Notes under the pieces: model-generated | The model's database searches: none | What the model was told of the DNA's origin: nothing | Seen by the model: the letters and a program-made list of their open reading frames with translations, nothing else | Made by a program: the position numbers and the translations under genes | Assembly (NCBI GenBank): GCA_000471045.1 | Contig: KI301992.1 | Location: forward strand, 1,548,942-1,612,941 | Reading direction: 5' to 3' | DNA from: an actinobacterium LLX17 | GTDB taxonomy: Bacteria; Actinomycetota; Actinomycetes; Propionibacteriales; Nocardioidaceae | DNA length: 64,000 nt | Shown here: piece by piece, positions 1-56,832 of the stretch | How positions within the stretch are numbered: the stretch's first letter is position 1 | Layout: each line of letters starts with the position of its first letter

Positions 1-1
1 G

Positions 2-322
2 CTGGCCGAGCTGGCGCGGCACGTGCCCGAGGTGCAGGCGCCGTGCCCGCCGGGAGGCCTGAACTTGTGGGTCACCCTGCCCGGGCGGCTGTCGAGCCGT
101 CTGTGCGCGGCCGCATCACGACGCGGACTGCTGCTGACACCGGGACCCCGGTTCTTCGCACAGCCCGGGCCCGGCGCCGAGCGGCACCTGCGTCTGGCCT
201 ACTCGCAGCCGGTCGACACGCTCACCGAGGCGGTGCAGCGCCTGCGGCTCGCACTCGACGACGTGCACGACGGTCGCGAGTCCTCCCCCAGCACGCCCGA
301 GACCCTCGACCTCATCGCTTGA
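2..322 (+). CDS. C-terminal end of a MocR/PdxR-type GntR regulator with aminotransferase domain (5' truncated)
   Basis: The reading frame is open from the window edge to a TGA at 320-322, giving about 106 residues. The stretch PPGGLNLWVTLP and, later, ERHLRLAYSQP match the end of the class I aminotransferase-like domain of MocR/PdxR regulators, which bind PLP and usually control vitamin B6 or amino-acid metabolism. The DNA-binding GntR part would lie upstream, outside the window. The class I aminotransferase superfamily assignment is fairly safe; the regulator subtype is an inference from the GGLNLWV and RLAYS signatures. It is convergent with ilvC, with a long palindrome between the two. Confidence 0.7.
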   Translation: MAELARHVPEVQAPCPPGGLNLWVTLPGRLSSRLCAAASRRGLLLTPGPRFFAQPGPGAERHLRLAYSQPVDTLTEAVQRLRLALDDVHDGRESSPSTPETLDLIA

Positions 323-325
323 CGT

Positions 326-393
326 CCCCGTTGAGTGTCACGTTCTGGCTGCAGATCGGGCGATCTGACGACCGAAACGTGACACTCAGCGGG
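326..393. repeat. Long imperfect palindrome, copy 1 of an intergenic repeat
   Basis: Two arms of about 31-32 bases (about 327-357 and 362-393) are near-perfect reverse complements around a 4-base centre. The conserved outer part reads TGAGTGTCACGTT. A second copy with the same outer arms lies at 56764-56832. Here it sits between the convergent regulator and ilvC, where it could act as a two-way terminator. The other copy is inside an operon, so termination cannot be its only role. Confidence 0.85.
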
Positions 394-428
394 AGTGGGT
401 CAGCGGGCGGCCCCGATGGCGGCAGCCA

Positions 429-1478
<1,050 letters not shown>

Positions 1479-2012
1479 TCAGCCGGCCTGCGAGCCGGGA
1501 ACGGTTCGCAGGGTGCGGTCGGTGATGGAACGGGCGCCGCGGCCGATGGCGACGCGGCCGGACTGGGCGATCTCGCGGATGCCGAAGGGCTCCAGGACCC
1601 GGAGCATCGCGTTGAGCTTGCCGGAGTCGCCGGTGGCCTCGATCGTCACGGCGTCGGGGGCGACGTCGACGACCTTGGCGCGGAACAGCTGCACGGTCTC
1701 CAGCACCTGGCCGCGCGTGGCGGGATCGGTCTTGACCTTGATCAGCATCAGCTCGCGCTCGACGGCCGAGTCGGAGTCGAGCTCGACGATCTTCAGCACG
1801 TTGACGAGCTTGTTGAGCTGCTTGGTGACCTGCTCGAGCGGCAGCTCGTCGACGTTCACGACGATCGTCATGCGCGAGATCTCGGGGATCTCGGTGGGGC
1901 CGACGGCGAGGGACTCGATGTTGAACCCCCGCCGCATGAACAGGCTCGAGACGCGCGCGAGGACACCGGGCGTGTTCTCGACCAGCACGCTCAACGTGTG
2001 TTGAGTAGTCAC
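1479..2012 (-). CDS. ilvN: Acetolactate synthase small (regulatory) subunit
   Basis: Regulatory subunit of acetohydroxyacid synthase; it binds valine through an N-terminal ACT domain and activates IlvB. It has 177 residues. The ACT domain fills residues 3-75, with [19 protein letters not shown] followed by [12 protein letters not shown]; the C-terminal half is the usual IlvN extension. The start is GTG at 2012, which shares GTGA with the ilvB stop, indicating translational coupling and subunit balance. Confidence 0.96.
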
Positions 2013-3805
2013 AGGTCGTCGTCCTCCCACTCGGGCGCGAGGTCGCGCGCGATCTTGATGTCGTCGTTGCTCGTGCCGGCGGCAACCATCGGCCAGACCA
2101 TCGCGTCGCGCTCGACCACGAAGTCGATCACGACCGGGCGGTCGGTGATGGCCATGGCCTCCTTGATCGTCGCATCGAGGTCGGCCTCGTTGTCGCACCG
2201 CAGGCCCACGCACCCGTAGGCGTCGGCGAGCTTGACGAAGTCGGGGATGCGGCGGGCGCCGATCGACTCCGGACCGGTGTTGAGGTCGGTGTTGGAGTAG
2301 CGGCCCTCGTAGAACAGGGTCTGCCACTGGCGCACCATGCCGAGCGAGGAGTTGTTGATGACCGCGACCTTGATCGGGATGCCCTCGAGCGCGCACGTGG
2401 CGAGCTCCTGATTGGTCATCTGGAAGCAGCCGTCACCGTCGATGGCCCACACGACGCGGTCGGGGTCACCGACCTGCGCGCCCATGGCCGCGGGCACCGC
2501 GTAGCCCATGGTGCCGGCGCCACCGGAGTTGAGCCACTGACGCGGGCGCTCGTACTCGACGAAGTGCGAGGCCCACATCTGGTGCTGTCCCACGCCCGCG
2601 ACGTAGATGGCCTCCGAGCCGGCGATGGCGCTGATGCGCTCGATCACCGTCTGCGGGGCCAGGCCGTCGGCGGCGGTGTCGTAGGCGACCGGGAAGCGCG
2701 ACTTGATCGAGAGCATCTGCGTGCGCCAGGCGTCGTAGTCGCCGCTCTCGCCGTCCTCGGCGAGGGCCTTCAGGGCCGCCAGCAGGTCGGTGATGACCTC
2801 GCGGGCATCGCCCACGATCGGCACGTCGGCCGTGCGGTTCTTGGAGATCTCGGCCGGGTCGATGTCGGCGTGGATCACCCGGGCCAGCGGCGCGAACGAG
2901 TCGAGGTTGCCGGTGACCCGGTCGTCGAACCGCGCGCCGAGGCTGACGAGCAGGTCGGACTTCTGCAGGGCGGCCACCGCGGCGACGGTGCCGTGCATGC
3001 CCGGCATGCCCATGTGCAGCTCGTGGGAGTCGGGGAACGCGCCGCGCGCCATCAGGGTCGTGACGACGGGGATGCCGTAGGTCTCGGCGAGCTCCTTGAG
3101 CTCGACGTGCGCCTCGGCCTTGATGCAGCCGCCACCCACGTAGAGCACGGGACGCTTGGACTCGACCATCAGGCGGGCGGCCTCGCGGACCTGCTTGCCG
3201 TGCGGACGCGTGGTGGGGCGGTAGCCCGGCAGCGCCAGCTCGTTCGGCCACTCGAAGGTCGTCATCGCCTGCATCGCGTCCTTGGCGACGTCGACGAGCA
3301 CGGGACCCGGACGGCCGGTGCCGGCGATGTGGAACGCCTCGGCGACGACGCGCGGGATCTGGGCCGGGTCGGTGACCAGGTAGCTGTGCTTGGTGATGGG
3401 CATCGTGATGCCCCGGATGTCGGCCTCCTGGAACCCGTCGGTGCCGATGAGGTGCGAGGAGACCTGGCCGGTGATGGCGACGATCGGGACGGAGTCCATG
3501 TAGGCGTCGGCGATCGCCGTGACGAGGTTCGTGGCACCCGGGCCCGACGTGGCCATGCAGACGCCGACGCGCCCCGTGGCCATGGCGTAGCCCTGGGCCG
3601 CGTGGCCCGCGCCCTGCTCGTGGCGCACGAGCACGTGGCGGATGGAGGAGTCGAACAGCGGGTCGTACGCCGGCAGGATCGCTCCGCCGGGGATGCCGAA
3701 GATGACGTCGACACCCGCGTGCTCGAGGGCGCGCACGAGGCTCTGCGCCCCGGAGATGCGTTCGATGCCGGCGTCGTGCTGCAGACCCGTGATCTGGCCC
3801 GTCAT
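2009..3805 (-). CDS. ilvB: Acetolactate synthase large (catalytic) subunit
   Basis: ThDP- and FAD-dependent enzyme that condenses two pyruvates (or pyruvate and 2-oxobutyrate), the first common step of branched-chain synthesis. It has 598 residues. [13 protein letters not shown] and [15 protein letters not shown] (activating Glu) form the N-terminal ThDP-binding domain. The C-terminal metal/ThDP motif starts at [12 protein letters not shown] and ends in INN. ATG 3805 is chosen over an in-frame upstream start at 3853 because GAAGGA lies just before it and the extra residues are not family-like. The gene is preceded by a leader peptide and attenuator. Confidence 0.97.
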
Positions 3806-3855
3806 GGTGTGTCCTTCGGTGTGCTGGAGGGTGGATTCGTGCGTGCTCTTCACAT

Positions 3856-3886
3856 AAAAAAACCCGTCGGCCTGGCGGCAGACGAG
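3856..3886 (-). terminator. Attenuator terminator of the ilvBNC operon
   Basis: On the minus strand a 10-base stem (CTCGTCTGCC paired with GGCCGACGGG, one mismatch and one G-U) closes a four-base loop and is followed at once by seven T residues, a classical intrinsic terminator. It lies between the leader peptide stop and ilvB. A U-tract this clean is rare in such GC-rich DNA. Confidence 0.85.
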
Positions 3887-3889
3887 GGA

Positions 3890-3918
3890 GACGTGAGCCC
3901 GGAGGGGGCGGTCACGTC
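3890..3918 (-). promoter_or_regulatory. Upstream hairpin of the ilvBNC attenuator
   Basis: GACGTGA pairs with TCACGTC, with an inner GCCC/GGGC extension. The 5' arm overlaps the TGA of the leader peptide, so a ribosome at the leader's last codons would block this stem. That is the arrangement expected of the ribosome-sensing hairpin in an attenuator. I did not fold competing structures. Confidence 0.65.
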
Positions 3919-4006
3919 ATACGAGTACGAGAAGGCGCGCGTGCACGCGACCAGTGTGTCGGGCGGCACCAAGGTGGTCAAGTCGTGGGACGGGCGGTAC
4001 CAGCAT
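3917..4006 (-). CDS. ilvL: ilvBNC leader peptide rich in Leu and Val at its end
   Basis: A 29-codon reading frame starts at ATG 4006 (GGGG five bases upstream) and ends LLVLV-stop immediately before the attenuator hairpins. A shorter version starting at GTG 3946 would give nine residues with the same end. Consecutive Leu/Val codons just before a terminator are the signature of branched-chain attenuation: ribosome stalling when charged tRNA-Leu or tRNA-Val is scarce would favour read-through into ilvB. The peptide probably has no other role. Confidence 0.75.
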   Translation of the reverse strand: MLVPPVPRLDHLGAARHTGRVHARLLVLV

Positions 4007-4066
4007 GTGGACCCCATGGCGGCCCTCGTACCCCTACGATGAGCCGACCCCCAACCAGGAGCCTGC

Positions 4067-4384
4067 ATGAGCCGCCACCAAACCTCGCGCCCCCACGGGC
4101 ACCTCGCCGTGCTGATCGGCGCACTGCTCCTCAGCGTGGCCGGGTGCTCGGACGGCCGGCCGGAGGTGAGCGAGCTCGCCGACGGTCTCACGACCGGCAC
4201 GTCGCTGTTCCCCGTGGCCGAGCAGCAGGCCGAGTGCGCTGCCGAGGTGCTGCGTGACTCCGACCTCGACGACGACCTGCTGACCGCCATCGCCGAGAGC
4301 GACACCGAGCACGAGATCAGCCCCGACGACGCCTCGACGCTCGCCACGCTGCAGGTCGAGGTCCTCGAGACCTGCGGCACCTGA
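4067..4384 (+). CDS. Small secreted lipoprotein, first of three tandem relatives
   Basis: 105 residues with a signal peptide and lipobox (LSVAGC, modified Cys near residue 27). The mature part is acidic and ends in Cys. It contains CAAEVLRDSDLDDDLLTAIAE, which parallels the C-AE-SDLSDE-LQ-IVDGD pattern of the next two genes, so the three look like diverged duplicates. The predicted location is the outer face of the membrane. No known function recognised. It is divergent from the ilv leader. Confidence 0.75.
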   Translation: MSRHQTSRPHGHLAVLIGALLLSVAGCSDGRPEVSELADGLTTGTSLFPVAEQQAECAAEVLRDSDLDDDLLTAIAESDTEHEISPDDASTLATLQVEVLETCGT

Positions 4385-4421
4385 GCGCGCCGTCTCACCG
4401 TTGGCCGGGTTGAATGGCCCC

Positions 4422-4730
4422 ATGACCAAGCGCCTTGCGGTCCTCGCCGCCACGTCCATCCTCGCCTTCACGGCCGCCTGCGGCGGGGGCGGCGACCGTC
4501 CGTCCGTCGACGAGGTCTCCGAGGCGCTCCAGAAGAGCGACGCCGATGGGTCGGAGGTGCCGCAGGAGTCCGCCGATTGCGTCGCCGAGGCCTTCGTCGA
4601 CTCCGATCTCTCCGACGAGGCCCTGCAGGCCATCGTCGACGGCGATGAGGACTACGACGCCAGCTCCGAGGACGAGAAGGTTGTCGCCGACGTGTCGGAA
4701 GAGGTCGGGACGTGCCTCAGCTCCGAGTGA
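4422..4730 (+). CDS. Small acidic lipoprotein, second tandem relative
   Basis: 102 residues from ATG 4422. The signal peptide MTKRLAVLAATSILAFTAAC is almost the same as that of the third gene, and the lipobox Cys is at residue 20. The mature protein is acidic with two further Cys (DCVAEAF and GTCLSSE) that could form a disulfide. The motif SDLSDEALQAIVDGDE is shared with the third gene (SDISDDTLQKIVDGD). Function unknown. Confidence 0.8.
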   Translation: MTKRLAVLAATSILAFTAACGGGGDRPSVDEVSEALQKSDADGSEVPQESADCVAEAFVDSDLSDEALQAIVDGDEDYDASSEDEKVVADVSEEVGTCLSSE

Positions 4731-4852
4731 ACGCCACCTGACCGGCTGGCTGTTGCTCAGCAGGTTCTCAGGGGCCGGTGACCCCTCGCGCCCGGGTTGC
4801 GGTTGAATGTTGCGCGTGCGACACGAGTCGCACCCGAATCAGGGGGTCTCCC

Positions 4853-5170
4853 ATGAACAAGCGCCTGGCGCTCGTCGCCGTCACGTCCATCCTCGCCTTC
4901 ACCGCTGCCTGCGGTGGCGGTCGCCCGTCGACCGGGCAGCTCAGCGAGGCGATCCAGGAGGAGGCCGGCTCGTCGGCCGCCATCACCGAGGAGATCGCCG
5001 ACTGCCTCGCCGAGAAGCTGCAGGAGTCCGACATCTCCGACGACACGCTGCAGAAGATCGTCGACGGCGACATCGATCCCACCGGCGTGTCCGCCGTCCC
5101 GAAGGACGACGAGGACGCGATCAAGGCGTTCTCCGAGGACGCCGCGGAGTGCATCACCGCCGAGCAGTGA
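4853..5170 (+). CDS. Small acidic lipoprotein, third tandem relative
   Basis: 105 residues from ATG 4853, with AGGGGG upstream. The signal peptide ends in the lipobox FTAAC. The mature part has DCLAEKLQESDISDD and a Cys near the end (AECITAEQ). It is the closest relative of the preceding gene, sharing signal peptide and core motif. A strong hairpin terminator follows. Function unknown; a lipid-anchored surface protein is the safest description. Confidence 0.8.
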   Translation: MNKRLALVAVTSILAFTAACGGGRPSTGQLSEAIQEEAGSSAAITEEIADCLAEKLQESDISDDTLQKIVDGDIDPTGVSAVPKDDEDAIKAFSEDAAECITAEQ

Positions 5171-5178
5171 CCTGACCA

Positions 5179-5214
5179 CGAACGGCCCGCGACCATCCGG
5201 TCGCGGGCCGTTCG
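5179..5214. terminator. Perfect 16-bp stem hairpin between convergent genes
   Basis: CGAACGGCCCGCGACC and its exact reverse complement are separated by ATCC. It lies 8 bases after the third lipoprotein stop and 4 bases before the stop of the convergent SDR gene, so it probably ends transcription from both sides. No T-run follows, as is common in GC-rich actinobacteria. Confidence 0.8.
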
Positions 5215-5218
5215 CGGG

Positions 5219-6652
5219 TCACCAGGGCGAGGCGACGTAGTCCTTGAGGAAGACGCCGTGCACATCCTCCCCCGCCTCGCCCCGCACGATCGGGTCGTAC
5301 ACGCGGGCCGCGCCGTCGACGAGGTCGAGCGGCGCCTTGAAGCCCTCGGACGCCAGCCGCACCTTGGTCGTGTGCGGCCGCTCGTCGGTGATCCACCCGG
5401 TGTCGACCGCGGTCATCAAGATGCCGTCGGACTCGAGCATCTCGCCCGCGCTGGTACGCGTGAGCATGTTGAGCGCGGCCTTCGCCATGTTGGTGTGCGG
5501 ATGGCCGGGGCCCTTGTAGCGCCGACCGAACTGCCCCTCCATCGCCGAGACGTTGACGACGTGGGTGCGCCGCGCGGGCGAGGCCGCCAGGCTCGGTCGC
5601 AGCCGGCTGATGAGGATGAACGGCGCGACGCTGTTGCACAGCTGCACCTCGAGCAGCTCGAGGGCGTCGACCTCCCCCACCGTCTGCACCCAGCTGTTGG
5701 TGTCGACGACGTCGGGCAGCAGGCCGCCGGCGTCGATGCGCTCGAGGTCGGCCGAGCCGGCGGTCAGCGCGGTCAGCGTCAGCTCATCGGCGGTCAGTGC
5801 GTCGGAGGCCAGCACGGGGTGCGCCGCCACGGAACCGACCAGGGAGGCGGGGTGGGCATCGCTGGTGTGCCCGAAGGTCACCAGCTCGACGGGCGAGCCG
5901 GCGGGCAGCGGGGCGGACTCGGCGTCGGCCAGCGGCTGGTAGGCGCCGGGCGTGCGCTTGACGGTCTGCGCGGCGTTGTTGATCAGCACGTCCAGCGGGC
6001 CGGCGGCGGCCACCTCGTCGGCGAGGCCGATGACCTGGGCGGGGTCGCGCAGGTCGATGCCCACGACCTTGAGCCGATGCATCCAGTCCTCGGCGTCCGG
6101 CATCTGGCTGAACCGGCGCACGGCGTCGCGCGGGAAGCGGGTGGTGATGGTGGTGTGCGCGCCGTCGCGCAGCAGCCGCAGGGCGATGTACATACCGATC
6201 TTCGCCCGGCCGCCGGTCAGCAGGGCGCGCCGACCGGTGAGGTCCGTCCGGTCGTCGCGGCGGGCGTGGTTCAGGTCGGCGCACTCCGGGCAGAGCTGAT
6301 GGTAGAACGCGTCGACCTGCGTGAACTTGGTCTTGCAGATGTAGCAGCCACGCGGCACGATCAGCGTCCCTGCCGACGCGCCGCGAGCCGTCGAGGTCAG
6401 CGGCAACCCGGCGGTCTCGTCGTCGATGCGCTGCGCCGAACCGGTGGCCGTGCTCTCGACCACCGCCCGGTCGGCCGCGGCCTCCGCCTGGCGCTTGCTG
6501 CGCCGACGTTCTTGCTTGGCGGCCTTGAAGAAGCCGCCGGTCGCGCGGCGCAGCGCCGTGTAGGCGGGGTCCTCCTGGTCGAGCTGGCCGGCCTGCTCGA
6601 GCACCCGGAGGGCCGTTGCGAGGTCGTCCGGGTCGATCTGGTCGGTCGCCAC
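5219..6652 (-). CDS. Atypical SDR-family protein with an N-terminal Cys4 site
   Basis: 477 residues from GTG 6652, five bases after the ilvD stop. The N-terminal 100 residues are charged and helical. A CYICK...CPECA pair (about residues 105-130) forms a likely Cys4 zinc site, followed by an SDR Rossmann fold whose nucleotide loop reads TGGRAKIG. NNAAQ and NVSAMEG (catalytic Ser region) are present. In the usual Tyr-x3-Lys position the sequence reads HTNMAKAALN, so the Lys is there but the Tyr four residues before it is Thr. The SDR fold is confident; activity and substrate are unknown. Co-transcription with ilvD is likely from spacing. Confidence 0.7.
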   Translation of the reverse strand: MATDQIDPDDLATALRVLEQAGQLDQEDPAYTALRRATGGFFKAAKQERRRSKRQAEAAADRAVVESTATGSAQRIDDETAGLPLTSTARGASAGTLIVPRGCYICKTKFTQVDAFYHQLCPECADLNHARRDDRTDLTGRRALLTGGRAKIGMYIALRLLRDGAHTTITTRFPRDAVRRFSQMPDAEDWMHRLKVVGIDLRDPAQVIGLADEVAAAGPLDVLINNAAQTVKRTPGAYQPLADAESAPLPAGSPVELVTFGHTSDAHPASLVGSVAAHPVLASDALTADELTLTALTAGSADLERIDAGGLLPDVVDTNSWVQTVGEVDALELLEVQLCNSVAPFILISRLRPSLAASPARRTHVVNVSAMEGQFGRRYKGPGHPHTNMAKAALNMLTRTSAGEMLESDGILMTAVDTGWITDERPHTTKVRLASEGFKAPLDLVDGAARVYDPIVRGEAGEDVHGVFLKDYVASPW

Positions 6653-6657
6653 CGGCC

Positions 6658-8370
6658 TCAGCCGCAGACCGCGCCGTCGGCGGCCGACGACACGAGCTTG
6701 CGGTACTTGGCCAGCACACCGGTCGTGTACTTCGGGGGCAACGGTTCCCAGCCGACCTTGCGCTGCTCGAGCTCGTCGGCGTCGATCTCGACGTCGAGCC
6801 GCTTGTTCGCGACGTCCAGCGTGATGGGGTCGCCGTCGCGCACGAACGCGATGGGACCGCCGTCGACGGCCTCGGGAGCGACGTGACCGACGCACAGGCC
6901 CGTGGTGCCACCGGAGAAGCGTCCGTCGGTCAGCAGCAGCACGTCCTTGCCGAGCCCTGCGCCCTTGATGGCACCGGTGATGGCGAGCATCTCGCGCATG
7001 CCGGGGCCGCCCTTGGGGCCTTCGTAGCGGATGACGACGACGTCGCCGGCGGTGATGGTGCCGTCCTCGAGTGCGTCCATGGCCTTGCGCTCGCCGTCGA
7101 AGACCCGGGCGGTGCCGGTGAAGACGTCGGAGTCGAAGCCGGCGCTCTTCACGACGGCGCCCTCGGGGGCCAGCGAGCCGTGCAGGATCGTCAGGCCGCC
7201 GGTCTTGTGGATGGGGCGGTCGAGGGGGCGGATGACGTCACCGTCGAGCTTCTGGGTGATGCCCTCGAGGTTCTCGGCCATCGTGCGACCGGTGACCGTG
7301 AGGCAGTCGCCGTGCAGCAGGCCGGCGTCCAGCAGCGCCTTCATGATGACCGCGGTGCCACCGGCCTGGTCGACGTCGTTCATGACGTACCGGCCGAAGG
7401 GCTTGAGGTCGCCCAGGTGCGGGACCTTGTCGCCGATGCGGCTGAAGTCCTCGAGGGTCAGCGGCACCTCGGCCTCGCGGGCGATGGCCAGCAGGTGCAG
7501 GACCGCGTTGGTCGAGCCGCCCAGCGCCATCGTGACGGCGATGGCGTTCTCGAACGCCTCCTTGGTGAGGATCTGCCGAGCGGTGATGCCGCGACGCAGC
7601 AGCTCGACGACGGCCTCGCCGGACTTGACCGCGAACTCGTCGCGGCGGCTGTCGATGGCGGGCGGCGCGGCCGAGCCGGGCAGGCTCATGCCGAGGGCCT
7701 CGGCGGCGGTCGCCATGGTGTTGGCGGTGAACATGCCGCCGCACGCGCCCTCGCCCGGGCAGATGGCGCGCTCGATCTTGTCGACCTGCTCGCGGGAGAT
7801 GAGCCCCCGCATGCACGCACCCACGGCCTCGAAGGCGTCGATGATCGTGACGTCCTTGCCGTCGACGTTGCCGGGCATGATCGAGCCGGCGTAGAGGAAG
7901 ACGCTGGCCAGGTCGAGACGAGCCGCGGCCATGAGCATGCCGGGCAGGCTCTTGTCACAGCCGGCCAGCAGCACCGAGCCGTCGAGGCGCTCGGCCATCA
8001 TGACGGTCTCGACCGAGTCGGCGATGACCTCGCGGCTGACGAGGGAGAAGTGCATGCCCTCGTGGCCCATCGAGATGCCGTCGGACACGCTGATGGTGCC
8101 GAACTCGAGCGGGTAGCCGCCACCGGCGTGCACGCCGGTCTTGACGGCCTTCGCCAGCCGGTCGAGCGAGAGGTTGCAGGGGGTGATCTCGTTCCAGCTC
8201 GAGGCCACACCGATCTGCGGCTTGACCCAGTCGTCGTCACCCATGCCGACAGCGCGCAGCATGCCGCGCGAGGCCGTGGCCTCGAGACCGTCGGTGACGG
8301 TGCGGCTACGGGGCTTGATGTCGATCTCGGGCGAGCTGCCAGCGGGGGTCTGGTCGGGCGAATCCTGCAT
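6658..8370 (-). CDS. ilvD: Dihydroxy-acid dehydratase
   Basis: Iron-sulfur enzyme that dehydrates the dihydroxy acids made by IlvC to the 2-oxo acids of valine and isoleucine. It has 570 residues, normal length. Cluster and Mg-site Cys occur in [22 protein letters not shown] and [20 protein letters not shown]; the C-terminal [13 protein letters not shown] is also a signature. The start is ATG 8370. It is separate from ilvBNC, with the SDR gene directly behind it. Confidence 0.97.
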
Positions 8371-8389
8371 ACCGCTCAGGGTACTGGCG

Positions 8390-9052
8390 TCAGAACAGGG
8401 GCACGAACAGCAGGGCCAGCGTCCAGCTGACGAAGCTGCCCACCAGCACGTACTCCGCGCGCATCCCGTCCTTGGAGTCCTGGGAGATCTCCGGGAAGCG
8501 CAGGATCCCCTTCGCGGCCACGAGCGCGCCGAGCGCCCCGAGGTGGCCGCTCACCGCGAACGCGAAGACGAGCCAGCGCTCCATCGGGCCGAGCAACCTC
8601 CCACCGCGCAGCGATCGCTCCTCCTCCAGCACGTGGGGCCCGGTGGCGGTCAGCGCCTGACGCACCACGACGTTCGCCGCGCTGGTCAGGAACAGCAGCA
8701 CGCCGAGTCCCAGGGCGGCGTGGTCGAGCGGCACGCCGGCCAGGCCGCTGACGGGGAGGTCGTCGTACCAGTCCTGCAGCGGCGCGTCGGTGGCGTCGAA
8801 GGCCGGTGACGCGATGACGAACGCGATCGCGACGAGCGCCAGCAGGATCGTGCCGGCGCGCGAGTCGTGGGCGGCCGCGTCGAGCCACACCACGACGACG
8901 AGCAGACACACCGGCGCGATCCACACCGTGTGCCACTCCGCCCCCGCCAGCACGCAGACGGCCACGACGACGGCGACCGCGACGAGGTGCCGCCAGCGCT
9001 GCGCGAGGTGCGCGACTCCGACGCCCGCGAGCAGCGCCGCCACGGGGGTCAC
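8390..9052 (-). CDS. DUF3307-like integral membrane protein, partner of SatD
   Basis: 220 residues from GTG 9052, which shares GTGA with the satD stop. About six hydrophobic segments span the protein. The C-terminal part [15 protein letters not shown] followed by [12 protein letters not shown] resembles the conserved end of DUF3307 proteins, which often neighbour satD. Function unknown. Translational coupling argues that the two products work together, with SatD as the soluble partner. Confidence 0.6.
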
Positions 9053-9690
9053 GCCGCAACCTCGGTCATCGAGAGCAGCAGCGTGGCGATGCCGTGGCTG
9101 CGGACGGTCTGGGAGACCGCGGAGGCCGAGATGCCCTCGCGCTCGGCGATGGTCTTCTGGGCCTCCCCCGCCAGCATCGCCAGGGCGATGCGGCGCTGAC
9201 GTCCGCCGAACGACGAGACGACCTGGTCGCGGCACAGGGCGTAGGCGGCGTAGCGACCCTGATCGGGGTCACCGGCGAGGTCGAGCCAGGTCCGCACCCC
9301 CGGGTGACGCTTCTGCATCCGCTTGGCCTCCTCGACCGCCGATCGTGCCGTCCACCACGCCGGACCGTCCTGCGTGAGCCCGTGGCGCGAGGCACCGACG
9401 ACCTCGAGCTCGCCGCGCCCGATCCCGCTGCGACAGTCCATGTCCTCGGGCAGAGCCAACCGCACGACCAGGCTGGCGCGCAACGCCTCGGTCGCCGAGG
9501 CGTACACGCCCTGGAACTCGTCGCCGATCGTGGCCTCCATCGGCTGTTCGGCCGGCACGTGACGGTTCGTGATCTCCAAGGCCGTCAGCAGGTCGGTCTG
9601 CGCTCGAGCGCGCGACTCGACACGTCGGGAGCCGACGAGGTCACCGATCACGGCGAACCATGCCGACGGGGGTGAAGACGGCGACTTCAT
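9049..9690 (-). CDS. satD: SatD-family protein with C-terminal helix-turn-helix
   Basis: 213 residues. The N-terminus WFAVIGDLVGSRRV and the GDEFQGVYASATEAL segment match the SatD family. The C-terminal 60 residues (MLAGEAQKTIAEREGIS then SAVSQTVRSHGI) form a sigma-70-region-4-like helix-turn-helix, so it may bind DNA. The family's biochemical role is not established. The start is ATG 9690, behind an AT-rich stretch with a good promoter. The coupled membrane gene follows. Confidence 0.7.
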   Translation of the reverse strand: MKSPSSPPSAWFAVIGDLVGSRRVESRARAQTDLLTALEITNRHVPAEQPMEATIGDEFQGVYASATEALRASLVVRLALPEDMDCRSGIGRGELEVVGASRHGLTQDGPAWWTARSAVEEAKRMQKRHPGVRTWLDLAGDPDQGRYAAYALCRDQVVSSFGGRQRRIALAMLAGEAQKTIAEREGISASAVSQTVRSHGIATLLLSMTEVAA

Positions 9691-47386: not shown

Positions 47387-48273
47387 CGTGTTGTCTGCCG
47401 CCCAGGGCCCGGCACCCCTGCCGAGGAGATCACCATGTCGAGCCCGAGGTCGAGGGCACGGGCGGAGTGGGTCAGGGCGCCGACGCTGATGACGTCGACG
47501 CCCGTCGCCGCGATCTTGCCCACCGTGTCGAGGGTGACGCCACCGCTGGCCTCGACGATCGCGCGACCAGCCACGAGCTCGACCCCGGCGCGCAGGTCGT
47601 CGAGCGAGAAGTTGTCGAGCATGATCGTGTCGACTCCCCCGGCCAGCACCGCCTCCACCTGGTCGAGCCGGTCGACTTCGACCTCCAGGTGCGTCGTGTG
47701 CGGCAGCTGCTCACGCGCCGAACGAATGGCCGCGGTGACGTCATCGAGCAGCGCGAGGTGGTTGTCCTTGGCCATGACCGCGTCGGACAACGAGTAGCGG
47801 TGATTGCGGCCGCCACCGCAGCGGACGGCGTGCCGCTCCAGCGCACGCAGGCCCGGCGTGGTCTTGCGAGTGTCGACGATGCGGGCACGGGTGCCCTCGA
47901 CCGCGGCGACGTAGGCAGCGGTCAGGGTGGCGACGCCGCTCATGCGCTGCACGAGGTTCAGCGCGACCCGCTCGCCGCGCAGCACCGCACGGGCCGGGCC
48001 CTCGATACGCGCGATGCGGTCGCCCGGACCGAAGCGGTCACGGTCGGCGAGGTCGAGCTGCACCTGCACGCGCGGGTCGACGGCCGCGAACGTCGCGACC
48101 ACGACGTCGGCACCGGCCAGCACCCCGCTCTCGCGCGCCATCAGGTCGGCGGTCGCGACGGCGTCCTCGGGCACGAACACGGCCGAGGTGAGGTCGCCGA
48201 ACGGGGCGTCCTCCTCCAGGGCCATCTCGACGACCCGACGGATCTGGGTCTCGGTCAGCAGTCCCCCGCTCAT
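47383..48273 (-). CDS. nadC: Nicotinate-nucleotide pyrophosphorylase (carboxylating)
   Basis: 296 residues from ATG 48273 (ATGA overlap with the nadB stop). Converts quinolinate and PRPP to nicotinate mononucleotide. Signatures: EDAPFGDLTSAVF, ERVALNLVQRMSGVAT, IVDTRKTTPGLRALER, AVRCGGGRNHRYSLSD and the C-terminal EASGGVTLDTVGKIAATGVD. Complete. Confidence 0.96.
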   Translation of the reverse strand: MSGGLLTETQIRRVVEMALEEDAPFGDLTSAVFVPEDAVATADLMARESGVLAGADVVVATFAAVDPRVQVQLDLADRDRFGPGDRIARIEGPARAVLRGERVALNLVQRMSGVATLTAAYVAAVEGTRARIVDTRKTTPGLRALERHAVRCGGGRNHRYSLSDAVMAKDNHLALLDDVTAAIRSAREQLPHTTHLEVEVDRLDQVEAVLAGGVDTIMLDNFSLDDLRAGVELVAGRAIVEASGGVTLDTVGKIAATGVDVISVGALTHSARALDLGLDMVISSAGVPGPGRQTTR

Positions 48274-53274: not shown

Positions 53275-56200
53275 TCACTGGAAGTCGCGGCTGGAATGCC
53301 GTGACGACAACGAGCCTGCCGTGGCCGGGAACAGCACCTCGATGCGATCGGCCCGCTCGGCCACCAGGTTGACCACCCGGTGCTCGGTGACCTCCGCGAT
53401 CCCCCGGATGACCACCCCGGCGGCACCTCGGAAGACGCGCCGGTGCTGCTCCCACACGTGGGTGAAGACCACGACGTTGAGCATGCCGGTCTCGTCCTCG
53501 AGGTTGAGGAACGTGACACCTCCAGCGGTGACCGGACGCTGGCGATGCGTGATGAGCCCGGCCACCCGGACGCGCCGGCCGTGACCGCTGCTCATCGCCT
53601 CGGCCACCGAGCACACCTGCTCGGAGCGCAACAGGTCACGCAGGTGCTCCATCGGATGACGCTCCGGCGAGACGCGGGTGGCCCAGAGGTCGGCGAGCGT
53701 CTCCTCGACGTCGCTGAGCCCCGGCAGCATCGGCGGGGGCGCCTCGACCGCGGTGCCCGGCAGCATCTGGGGCGCATCGGTGAACCCGGCGTTCCACAGT
53801 GCCTGACGGCGCGAGATGCCGAAGCCGTCGAAGGCGCCCGCCGTGGCCAGCGACTCCATCTGGGCCGTGCTGAGACCGGTGCGCCGCACGACGTCGGCCA
53901 TGTCGGTGAACGGCTGCTCGGCGCGCGCCGCGACGATGCGTCGAGCCACCTCGGTGCCGATGCCCTGCACGCTGTCGAGCCCCATGCGCACCGCCAGGTT
54001 GCCGTCGCGCCGGTGCGTGGGCGTGGGGTCGGCGACGTCGGGGTCGAACCGCTGCGGCGCCGGCTGCTCGCGCTCGAGGCACGAGTCGAGGCCTGTTGGC
54101 CCAGGGCCCGGGACCCCCCTGGCGGGGGTCCCGGGCCGTGGGCGGGAAGAAGGCACAGCCAGGGGCTCCAGGTCGGCCTGCGCCTGGGAGAACCGGATGT
54201 CGGGGCGCCGGGTCTCGACACCGTGCAGGCGGGCGTCGGAGACCAGGGACGCCGGCGAGTAGAACCCCATCGGCTGGTTGCGCAGCAGGGCGGCCAGGAA
54301 GATCGCCGGGTAGTGCAGCTTGAACCAGCTGCTGGCGTAGACCAGCAGCGCGAAGCTCAGCGCGTGGCTCTCGGCGAAGCCGAAGTTCGCGAACGACTTG
54401 ATGGTCAGGTAGATGGCGTCGGCCTCGGGGCCGACGATGCCGTGCTTGGCCATGCCGTCGAACAGCTTCGCCTCGAGCGACTCGATGCGCTCGATGCCGC
54501 GCTTGGAACCCATGGCCCGGCGCAGCAGGTCGGCCTCGTCGCCGGTGCAGTCGCCCAGCTCGACCGCCATCTGCATCAGCTGTTCCTGGAACAGCGGCAC
54601 CCCCTTGGTGCGCTTGAGCACCGGCTCCAGCACCGGGTGCGGGTAGGTGACGGGGTCGAGCCCTGTGGCCCGCCGAATGTACGGGTGCACGGACCCGCCC
54701 TGGATGGGGCCGGGGCGGATCAGCGCGATCTCGATGGCGAGGTCGTAGAACTGGCGCGGCTGCAGGCGCGGCAGCGTGCCGATCTGCGCCCGGCTCTCGA
54801 CCTGGAACACGCCGATCGAGTCGGCCCGGCAGAGCATGTCGTAGACGCCCGGCTCGTCCTTGGGGATGGTGGCGAGCTCCCACGCCTCACCCAGGTGCTG
54901 CTCGGTGAGCGTGAAGCAGTGATCGAGCGCGCCCAGCATGCCCAGGCCCAGCAGGTCGAACTTGACCAGCCCCATCCACTCGCAGGCGTCCTTGTCCCAC
55001 TGCAGCACCGTGCGGTCGTCCATGCGGGCCCGCTCGATCGGCACCACCTCGCCGATGGGCCGCTCGGTCAGGATCATGCCGCCGGAGTGGATGCCCAGGT
55101 GGCGCGGCCGGCCGATCAGCTGTCCGGCGAGCTCCTGCACCGAGGCCGGCACGTCGCTGTCGGGATCGAGCGCACCCCAGCGCTCGATGCCCTTGCTCCA
55201 GGCATCCTGCTGCCCCACCGAGAAGCCCAGCGCCTTCGCGGCGTCACGAACCGCCGAGCGCGGCCGGTACGTGATGACGTTGGCGACCTGCGCGGCGTTA
55301 CGGCGGCCGTAGGTGTCGTAGACCCACTGGATGACCTCCTCGCGGCGGTCGGAGTCGAAGTCGACGTCGATGTCGGGCTCCTCCTCGCGCGTGGCGGCCA
55401 GGAAGCGCTCGAAGGGCAGGCCGTAGAAGATCGAGTCGACCGCCGTGATGCCCAAGGCGTAGCAGAGCGCCGAGTTGGCCGACGAGCCTCGCGCTTGGCA
55501 CAGGATCTTCTGCTCACGGGCCCACGTGACGATGTGGTGGACGATCAGGAAGTAGCCCTCGAAGTTCTTCTCGGCGATCACCGCCAGCTCGCGGTCGATG
55601 CGCTCGCGGGCGCGGTCGAGGTCGTGCGCGTACCGGACGCGGATGCCTTCCTCGGCCAGGTGCCGCAGCCACGACCGGTTGGTGTGTCCTTCCGGCACGC
55701 CGCGCACCGGCAGCCGCGGCGTGACCGAGCGCAGGTCGAAGGCCAGCTCCTGGGCCAACGTGACCGAGTGCGCGACGGCGCCGGGGTACCGGGCGAAGCG
55801 GGCCTGCATCTCGGCGCCGGAGCGCAGGTGGGCGGCGCCGGACGGTGGCAGCCAACCGTCGAGCTCGGTCAGGCTGCGGCGCGCCCGGATGGCTGCCATC
55901 GCCGCGGCCAGCCGGCCCTCCTGCGGGGTGGCGTGGTGCACCGCGTTGGTGGCCACGACCGCCAGGCCGTGGTCGGCGGCCAGGCGGGCCAGCGCGTCGT
56001 TGCGCTCGGAGTCGTCGGGCCGCCCGTGGTCGGTCAGCTCGACCACCACGCCGTCGAGACCGAACCGAGCCGTCAGCCGGTCGAGCTCGATCGCCGCCGC
56101 CGCCGGTCCCCCACTCGCGAGCGCCTGCCGCACGGCACCCTTGCGGCACCCCGTGAGCACGACCCAGTGCCCCCGGCCCCGCTCGGCCAGCTCGTCGAGG

Positions 56201-56748
56201 TCGTGCACGGGCCGGCCCTTGGCATCACCGCGCAGATTCGCCTCGGTGAGCGCCGCCGCCAGCCGGTGGTAGCCCTCGGCGCCGCGGGCCAGCACCAGCA
56301 GGTGGGTGCCCTCGGGATCGGCGATGCCACCCTGCGGGCGCGTGAGCCCCAACGAGATCTCGGTGCCGTAGATCGTCGTGAGGTCGTGCGACTGTGCGGC
56401 CTCGGCCAGCACCGGCGCCCCGGCGAAGCCGTCGTGATCGGTCAGCGCCAACCCCGACAGGCCCAGACGCACCGCCTCCTCGACCAGCGCGTCGGGATCA
56501 CTGGCACCGTCGAGGAAGCTGTAGCTGCTGTGACAGTGCAGCTCGGCGTACGGCACCACCGTCTCGGGCCGTTCCACCTCCGGCGCCTCGTACCGCCCCC
56601 GCTTGTGCGAGATCGGCGCGTCGCTCGCGACCCATCTCTGATGCTCCGCCCCCCACGGATCCCGCGGAGGCGGATCGCTGATCCGCCCACGCCCCGAGAG
56701 CCGCTTCTCGAGCTCACCCCACGGCATGTCCGGGTTGTTCCACCCCAT
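53275..56748 (-). CDS. dnaE2: Error-prone DNA polymerase III alpha subunit DnaE2
   Basis: 1157 residues from ATG 56748 (GGTGGAGG eight bases upstream; GTG 56763 is an alternative). MGWNNPDMPWGELEKRLSG is the known DnaE2 opening. PHP domain AELHCHSSYSFLDGAS, palm motif EEPDIDVDFDSDRREE, then the helix-hairpin-helix and OB parts. Around residues 855-905 an extra Pro/Gly/Arg-rich stretch of about 45 residues, centred on a perfect DNA hairpin, interrupts the usual join before AVRMGLDSVQGIG. With ImuB and ImuA' it makes the SOS translesion mutasome. Confidence 0.95.
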   Translation of the reverse strand: MGWNNPDMPWGELEKRLSGRGRISDPPPRDPWGAEHQRWVASDAPISHKRGRYEAPEVERPETVVPYAELHCHSSYSFLDGASDPDALVEEAVRLGLSGLALTDHDGFAGAPVLAEAAQSHDLTTIYGTEISLGLTRPQGGIADPEGTHLLVLARGAEGYHRLAAALTEANLRGDAKGRPVHDLDELAERGRGHWVVLTGCRKGAVRQALASGGPAAAAIELDRLTARFGLDGVVVELTDHGRPDDSERNDALARLAADHGLAVVATNAVHHATPQEGRLAAAMAAIRARRSLTELDGWLPPSGAAHLRSGAEMQARFARYPGAVAHSVTLAQELAFDLRSVTPRLPVRGVPEGHTNRSWLRHLAEEGIRVRYAHDLDRARERIDRELAVIAEKNFEGYFLIVHHIVTWAREQKILCQARGSSANSALCYALGITAVDSIFYGLPFERFLAATREEEPDIDVDFDSDRREEVIQWVYDTYGRRNAAQVANVITYRPRSAVRDAAKALGFSVGQQDAWSKGIERWGALDPDSDVPASVQELAGQLIGRPRHLGIHSGGMILTERPIGEVVPIERARMDDRTVLQWDKDACEWMGLVKFDLLGLGMLGALDHCFTLTEQHLGEAWELATIPKDEPGVYDMLCRADSIGVFQVESRAQIGTLPRLQPRQFYDLAIEIALIRPGPIQGGSVHPYIRRATGLDPVTYPHPVLEPVLKRTKGVPLFQEQLMQMAVELGDCTGDEADLLRRAMGSKRGIERIESLEAKLFDGMAKHGIVGPEADAIYLTIKSFANFGFAESHALSFALLVYASSWFKLHYPAIFLAALLRNQPMGFYSPASLVSDARLHGVETRRPDIRFSQAQADLEPLAVPSSRPRPGTPARGVPGPGPTGLDSCLEREQPAPQRFDPDVADPTPTHRRDGNLAVRMGLDSVQGIGTEVARRIVAARAEQPFTDMADVVRRTGLSTAQMESLATAGAFDGFGISRRQALWNAGFTDAPQMLPGTAVEAPPPMLPGLSDVEETLADLWATRVSPERHPMEHLRDLLRSEQVCSVAEAMSSGHGRRVRVAGLITHRQRPVTAGGVTFLNLEDETGMLNVVVFTHVWEQHRRVFRGAAGVVIRGIAEVTEHRVVNLVAERADRIEVLFPATAGSLSSRHSSRDFQ
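54105..54137. repeat. Perfect 14-bp stem palindrome inside dnaE2
   Basis: GGCCCGGGACCCCC and its exact reverse complement enclose CTGGC. It keeps the dnaE2 frame open and encodes a Pro/Gly/Arg stretch (RPGTPARGVPGPGP) absent from the family core. It looks like an inserted palindromic element or a local duplication. Confidence 0.85.
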
Positions 56749-56763
56749 CAGCGCGGCCTCCAC

Positions 56764-56832
56764 CCTCGCTGAGTGTCACGTTCTGGTCGTGAGATCTGGG
56801 ATCTGGCGACCAGAACGTGACACTCAGCGGGG
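56764..56832. repeat. Long palindrome, copy 2 of the intergenic repeat
   Basis: Arms of about 33 bases (56764-56796 and 56800-56832) pair almost perfectly around TGG; each end contains CGCTGAGTGTCACGTT. Copy 1 is at 326-393. This copy fills the gap between the corrected imuB end and the dnaE2 ribosome-binding site, so the mutasome mRNA would carry a large hairpin just upstream of dnaE2. Confidence 0.88.

Follow-up and report, generated by a model that had tools for sequence, protein, structure and literature searches.

Within the window (the whole 64-kb stretch analysed here, part of a 3.0 Mb genome that we call G000, with C1 coordinates referring to its contig and other G numbers to other genomes), the minus strand carries dnaE2 (53275..56763), encoding an error-prone DNA polymerase. 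The 1162-codon ORF scores 1413.6 bits against NCBIfam NF004225 (cut-off 939) and its product contains the Pfam domains PHP, DNA_pol3_alpha, finger, HHH_6 and tRNA_anti-codon. An initial annotation had reported a palindrome lying in frame within the coding region of this gene, and both the palindrome and its location proved correct. At 54105..54137, GGCCCGGGACCCCC (54105-54118) and GGGGGTCCCGGGCC (54124-54137) form a perfect 14-bp stem around the 5-nt loop CTGGC, and the peptide encoded is SSRPRPGTPARGVPGPGPT. The arms can be extended to 20 nt at 95% complementarity (54099-54118 / 54124-54143). A looser form of the palindrome, GGGACCCCN{2,10}GGGGTCCC, is present a single time in the window and in none of 100 dinucleotide shuffles. 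Folded as single-stranded DNA, the 61 nt from 54090 to 54150 reach -28.8 kcal/mol on the plus strand and -26.5 kcal/mol on the minus strand, beating 200/200 shuffles on either strand.

The palindrome overlaps a single repeat unit on the plus strand (54119..54156), antisense to dnaE2, as delimited from 54 relatives in the genome and from covariation. This unit reads CTGGC GGGGG TCCC GG GCC GTG GGC GGGA AGAAGGCAC and comprises a GGGG foot, a bulged 7-bp hairpin and a tail ending in GCAC; it is a compensated stem variant of the TCCC/GGGA type. The second arm (54092..54118, minus strand) is inverted relative to the first, and over the 20-nt arms the two are 95% complementary. It departs from the unit consensus at 6 of 25 positions, and may be either a second unit, degenerate and of the AGGGG...CCCTGGGC subtype found at C1:711223, or local linker sequence altered to match the first unit. 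The sole mismatch between the arms falls on a position that is variable in the family, which favours the second arm as a unit of its own. However, this arm is poor and the net gain at the locus barely exceeds one unit, which weakens the case for an inserted inverted pair. The lone unit as single-stranded DNA does not fold comparably better than its own shuffles (z -0.6 to -1.7).

DNA alignment with the five nearest dnaE2 genes (G011, G042, G030, G040 and G031; 78-79% DNA identity) gives a net gain of 42 nt. In the protein, the join between SLVSDAR and SVQGIGTEV measures 101 residues, compared with 87 in the same five relatives and 84-96 across 45 other Aeromicrobium proteins. The extra stretch is therefore ~14 residues long, and not the ~45 first proposed; TGLDSCLEREQPAPQRFDPDVADPTPTHRRDGNLAVRMG is ordinary DnaE2 sequence and the remainder of the join is normal DnaE2 linker. 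The closest named relatives of the protein are from Aeromicrobium, and a DnaE2 match was found in 48 of 49 genomes of the genus. In an alignment of 46 DnaE2 proteins, which leaves out G037 and G032 (fragments) and G028 (no match), the PSSRPRPGTPARGVPGPG stretch is found in the present protein alone (0/45 others). At the same join the DnaE2 of G041 (L151) carries an unrelated insert of ~11 residues (APYSQSSWGDPHL region). An AlphaFold2 model built from 22 sequences (mean pLDDT 74.7) gives values below 50 at residues 870-886, which cover most of the insert, although few aligned rows at an insert can also lower pLDDT. The modelled insert is flanked by a strand (864-867) and a short helix (893-896), and as modelled this fits a flexible loop between two ordered elements. 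Most likely, the element is tolerated by DnaE2 and confers no function.

A BLAST search with the insert and its surroundings against its own genome returned 35 matches including itself, one of them 33 nt at 100% identity within a biotin-carboxylase-like gene (C1:2838839-2838871). Moreover, the pattern GGGGGTGCCGGGCCGTGGGCGGCAA, allowing up to 3 mismatches, has 54 matches in G000 compared with 0 for the reversed pattern. The units occupy 50 sites, in both orientations and all over the chromosome. Of the palindrome itself, for which the initial annotation had advised a genome-wide search, the strict core occurs once only; it is the half-unit of ~36 nt that is repeated. Rather than an insert common to all close relatives with a palindrome unrepeated elsewhere, the outcome which that annotation had set against its own reading, we found the insert in 0 of the 45 other DnaE2 proteins and the unit at 50 sites.

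One further unit lies in the window on the minus strand at a gene junction (47395..47419, C1:1596336-1596360), with an exact 20-nt core at 47397-47416, and is classed as intergenic. The reading frame downstream of it opens like what we take to be a cysteine desulfurase; by eye, the unit also provides the end of the upstream reading frame. Three inverted arrangements exist in G000: that at dnaE2, a long pair at C1:250628-250685 (L004) and a partial one at C1:2842009. The long pair lies just upstream of an apparent CIRCE element and groES. We also note a possible hot spot, with 5 of the 50 sites in ~12 kb of cobalamin-type genes (C1:2998449 to the record end plus 1-9176, if the record is circular). 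These sites fall in cobQ (twice), a cobB-like gene, a chlD-like gene and one spacer; in relatives, too, cobQ and cobB-like genes hold units.

With up to 3 mismatches allowed, the repeat is present in 15 of the 49 Aeromicrobium genomes. Besides the 54 matches of G000 there are 65 in G046, 56 in G033, 50 in G039 and 48 in G018; three carriers have a single match, and 34 of the 49 congeners, some of them incomplete, have none. When 245 genomes sampled from 26 genera of the family were searched under strict filters with a covariance model built on the unit, 14 gave matches, and all of these are Aeromicrobium. Carriage by phage was considered and rejected, the exact pattern GGGGTGCCGGGCCNTGGGCGGCR having 0 matches in viral contigs. 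Mapping the 13 carriers that have a full protein onto the DnaE2 tree takes 4 changes, and 0/500 shuffles needed as few. The repeat family is thus probably old and belongs to one part of the genus; it is lost or lacking in G011 and in a clade of 20 genomes that holds one single match.

The unit of ~36 nt consists of CCGGC, an RGGGG foot, TGCC, a GG bulge, GCC, an NTG loop, GGC, GGCA and a variable tail that is often ACAGCAC-like. In an alignment of 59 chosen units, which omits the 16 least family-like of 75 and could therefore flatter pairing, 97.1% of cells are paired compared with 92.3% after shuffling (0/500 shuffles as high), and 13 cells show two-sided changes compared with 3.2 (0/500 as high). 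Two of the five covariation measures were weak for these 59 units, namely pairs with a two-sided change (53/500 shuffles as high) and further pair types (21/500). For all 254 distinct units, 94.6% of cells are paired compared with 91.9%, and there are 29 two-sided changes compared with 9.8 (0/500 as high). Columns 12-28 pair as GC 49, UA 5, CG 4 and GU 1 times, and columns 14-26 as CG 55, GC 3 and other once. An alternative stem, CCGGC/GCCGG, was rejected, its covariation being no better than in shuffles (267/500 as high on cells paired).

Next to the 33 intergenic sites of G000, 17 of the 50 lie inside ORFs. The site classes rest on a crude codon model, trained on mechanically chosen ORFs of the window of which some overlap on opposite strands; by this model, 19 sites have the same frame on both flanks and 17 of these read through without a stop, that is, 16 sites in 15 long ORFs plus the N-terminus of a GcvH-like protein. 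Stops are met at the two others (C1:269681 and C1:1964980). Ten insert-bearing ORFs were scanned, and LeuS, HisS, PanB, ArgD and CobQ scored above their NCBIfam cut-offs. The insert lies inside the matched stretch in LeuS, HisS, ArgD and CobQ, and before it in PanB; in ArgD it consists of three 36-nt units in tandem, and CobQ has inserts at two separate sites. A decarboxylase, the biotin-carboxylase-like protein and a short-chain dehydrogenase scored below the cut-off, and the ORFs at C1:102700 and C1:1039956 had no NCBIfam match at 1e-20. The names cobB-like, chlD-like, glutamate-dehydrogenase-like, ubiA-like and GcvH-like were given by eye. When the genomes are taken together, 57 of 154 distinct sites pass as coding, a count in which sites orthologous between close species are incompletely merged. 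Of the frames used, 36 are GGAGPWAAD-like, 10 AGVPGRGRQ-like and 9 antisense RRPRPGTPAG-like; 2 sites use a fourth frame and none the other two. The peptides derived from the unit are rich in Gly, Pro, Ala and Arg. Usually ~90% of a bacterial genome is coding. In-gene sites (17/50) are therefore rarer than expected, and most in-gene copies have probably been purged.

Orthologues were aligned for ten sites, with three to six relatives each, and both filled and empty alleles are present; these comparisons are between species, with one genome per species. LeuS, HisS and the C1:1039956 protein are filled in 0/6 relatives, and ArgD is clearly filled in none of six (G030 is ambiguous). A filled allele occurs in one of three relatives for the decarboxylase (G040, with two units), in one of five for the biotin-carboxylase-like gene and in one of four for PanB. 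In CobQ the first site is filled in 2/6 relatives and the second in 1/6. The cobB-like gene is filled in two of five, and here the unit of G021 lies at the position used in G000 and G030 but in the opposite orientation, an argument for more than one insertion into a tolerant loop.

Three closely related genomes, G007, G026 and G039 (dnaE2 95-96% identical), have one unit versus two to four at many shared sites and equal numbers at others. For 25 G039/G026 sites that lack a partner in G007, the joined flanks were searched against that genome, and 20 counterparts were retrieved. Nineteen of these contain no recognisable unit, the best match being mismatched at 8 or more of 24 positions as in most random stretches; the remaining one (site 77) has fewer units than in G039/G026. 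The net difference is exactly 36 nt at four sites (62, 44, 84 and 53). Other sequence of near-equal length stands opposite the unit at sites 55, 56 and 29 (net 0, 10 and -3), and at sites 54, 57 and 29 the alignment is too poor for placing the junction. The bases beside an insertion often differ from the empty allele. Together with the near-equal lengths at sites 55, 56 and 29, this makes replacement possible there, instead of simple insertion. After removal of one of the 20 pairs (L354, its right flank being part of another repeat) and of a row whose net difference was 0, multiples of 3 account for 16 of the 18 rows classed as coding, 9 of 20 other rows and 1 of 3 with a stop. The first of these ratios is partly built in, since membership of the coding class requires the same frame on either side; some sites contribute two rows. 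The two coding misses measure 41 and 34 nt by anchors, and 39 and 36 nt in the alignments. This supports selection for frame, without proving it.

Taken together, we consider it highly probable that the palindrome in dnaE2 is one of the insertions made by a mobile, lineage-specific repeat in Aeromicrobium that resembles REPs and RPEs and lands in frame in tolerant loops. The original suggestion of a palindromic element entering genes without disturbing the frame thus gains support from the 50 sites, 17 of them in ORFs, and from the filled and empty orthologous sites. For a variable join that holds a different insert of ~11 residues in G041, one might think of a palindrome arisen by chance in GC-rich coding DNA, or of the usual variation of a low-complexity linker. 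However, the probability of this is negligible given the 54 matches against none for the reversed control, the 33-nt identity with the biotin-carboxylase-like gene and the result of 0/100 shuffles, and chance is refuted by the genome-wide copies. The repeat could also be a functional RNA or regulatory element, such as a terminator, mRNA stabiliser or binding site, of which the dnaE2 copy is misplaced. Stem covariation and the 33/50 intergenic sites would agree with such a role, but it is improbable: at gathering thresholds, searching 10 loci against Rfam yielded one tRNA and nothing for the repeat, copies lie in both orientations inside ORFs, and the lack of a match (up to 3 mismatches) in 34/49 congeners, some incomplete, argues against an essential role. 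Classical REPs or REPINs in an actinobacterium, that is, GTAG- or CGTC-tagged repeats of which the GTAG ones are moved by a RAYT (Y1 tyrosine transposase), come closer in form. They have the same size (20-40 nt), a bulged hairpin and a dispersed, partly intragenic distribution, and the inverted pairs at dnaE2, C1:250628-250685 and (partial) C1:2842009 recall them. Published REPs also occur in dnaE2 and tRNA-synthetase genes (PMC3733652). Against this, GGGG directly precedes the stem in 202/224 units (the selection pattern includes these bases), whilst GTAG is found at 0/224 feet; CGTC occurs within 8 nt of the reversed foot, in the variable tail, in 28/224 units and near other feet in 3. Moreover, among 162 sites there are 120 single units, 41 head-to-tail arrays and 1 mixed array, with commonest periods of 36 (23), 35 (17), 34 (7) and 33 nt (5), whereas REP dimers are mostly head-to-head (PMC3733652, Table 1). 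The Y1 transposase domain PF01797 was found in 0/49 genomes of the genus, and in 5/14 controls. Tag, array type and transposase are thus all against a classical REP/RAYT system, which we reject as very unlikely.

A less favoured but serious possibility is that the host itself generated the repeats, hairpin-driven template switching and slippage copying the unit as a by-product of replication or repair with no dedicated enzyme. Unit number does vary at shared sites with periods clustering at 33-36 nt, bases beside insertions are disturbed and local sequence may have been converted to give the second dnaE2 arm. In addition, no transposase-like or other mobile-element-like domain was found among 10 Pfam-scanned proteins of the 20 that flank ten sites (eight arrays): nine had ordinary domains and one had none. 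The other ten we take, by eye, to be enolase, peroxiredoxin and similar proteins. On the other hand, copies are spread chromosome-wide with the covarying stem kept, and carriers cluster on the DnaE2 tree (4 changes, 0/500), in keeping with a heritable trait, for instance an enzyme, although shared old copies would cluster too.

For the mobile repeat that we prefer, the kept stem argues for recognition of a folded strand, and we lean, without great confidence, towards a trans-acting factor that would recognise the folded single strand and place the new copy. Alternatively, and more tentatively, host template switching at the hairpin during replication or repair might place it. After placement, slippage between head-to-tail copies would grow or shrink the unit number, as the changes in unit number after arrival argue, and selection would retain insertions between genes or, in frame, in flexible loops. 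Neither a clean target-site duplication nor a fixed boundary was seen in the filled/empty alignments, in which the flanks are too changed near the junctions. It is conceivable, though we would not favour it, that these repeats form a separate superfamily of mobile hairpins (GGGG foot, compensated bulged stem, head-to-tail growth), moved by an unrecognised non-Y1 enzyme of part of Aeromicrobium and shaped for in-frame readability through essential enzymes, with the landing in dnaE2 independent of that of published REPs.

The best-known palindromes that insert into proteins come from the obligate intracellular genus Rickettsia. Rickettsia palindromic elements (RPEs) are dispersed and lie in frame within unrelated protein genes (PMC10969869, PMC3733652); they are described as measuring ~150 bp and forming ten families (PMC10969869). 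The counterparts of RPE-4 and RPE-6 are short CGTC REPs, which as a class apparently have no dedicated transposase (PMC3733652). The Aeromicrobium unit similarly inserts in frame into unrelated protein genes. It is set apart by its length of ~36 nt, its high GC content, its actinobacterial host and its GGGG foot in place of CGTC. With GTAG/CGTC REPs (PMC3733652) it shares a hairpin of 20-40 nt, an unpaired foot, clusters and some intragenic copies, and differs in the GGGG foot, the head-to-tail arrays and the lack of any Y1 gene found in 49 genomes. Like bacterial MITEs (PMC10969869), the unit is small, non-autonomous and sometimes fused in frame to genes. It may differ from them in that single units show no terminal inverted repeat of 15-30 bp and our alignments, changed near the junctions, no clear target duplication. 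Intragenic REPs, including some in dnaE2 and tRNA synthetases, are described by Di Nocera et al. (PMC3733652), whose searched main text does not contain the word 'actinobacteria'. No such repeats were found by title among the retrieved papers mentioning Aeromicrobium, nor in the broader repeat literature searched. The Aeromicrobium repeat is a new genus-specific family, intragenic palindromes as such being already published. GC-rich actinobacteria with filled and empty alleles in close species make insertion length, frame choice, site tolerance and spread measurable. With 15/49 carriers and no Y1 found, the movement of transposase-less REPs becomes testable by comparing the gene content of carriers and non-carriers. 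For annotation, some inserts of 12-36 residues in LeuS, HisS, ArgD or DnaE2 of Aeromicrobium are element-derived.

Lastly, other palindromes were noted. A second family, with the core CCCGCTGAGTGTCACGTT...AACGTGACACTCAGCGGG, is present in the window at 56764-56832, directly upstream of the dnaE2 ORF and with 33-nt arms, and at 327-393. Its exact 17-nt cores occur in 9/358 loci, including other Aeromicrobium genomes, with matches at further places in G007. A third dispersed family (...GTGGGGCCCCACGCAAACGTGCGG...), of which the 12-nt core is absent from the 64-kb window, is found at C1:131438-131609 of G007 with 20 further matches, and at L246. In G039, a unit of the dnaE2 family adjoins a palindrome of this third family.
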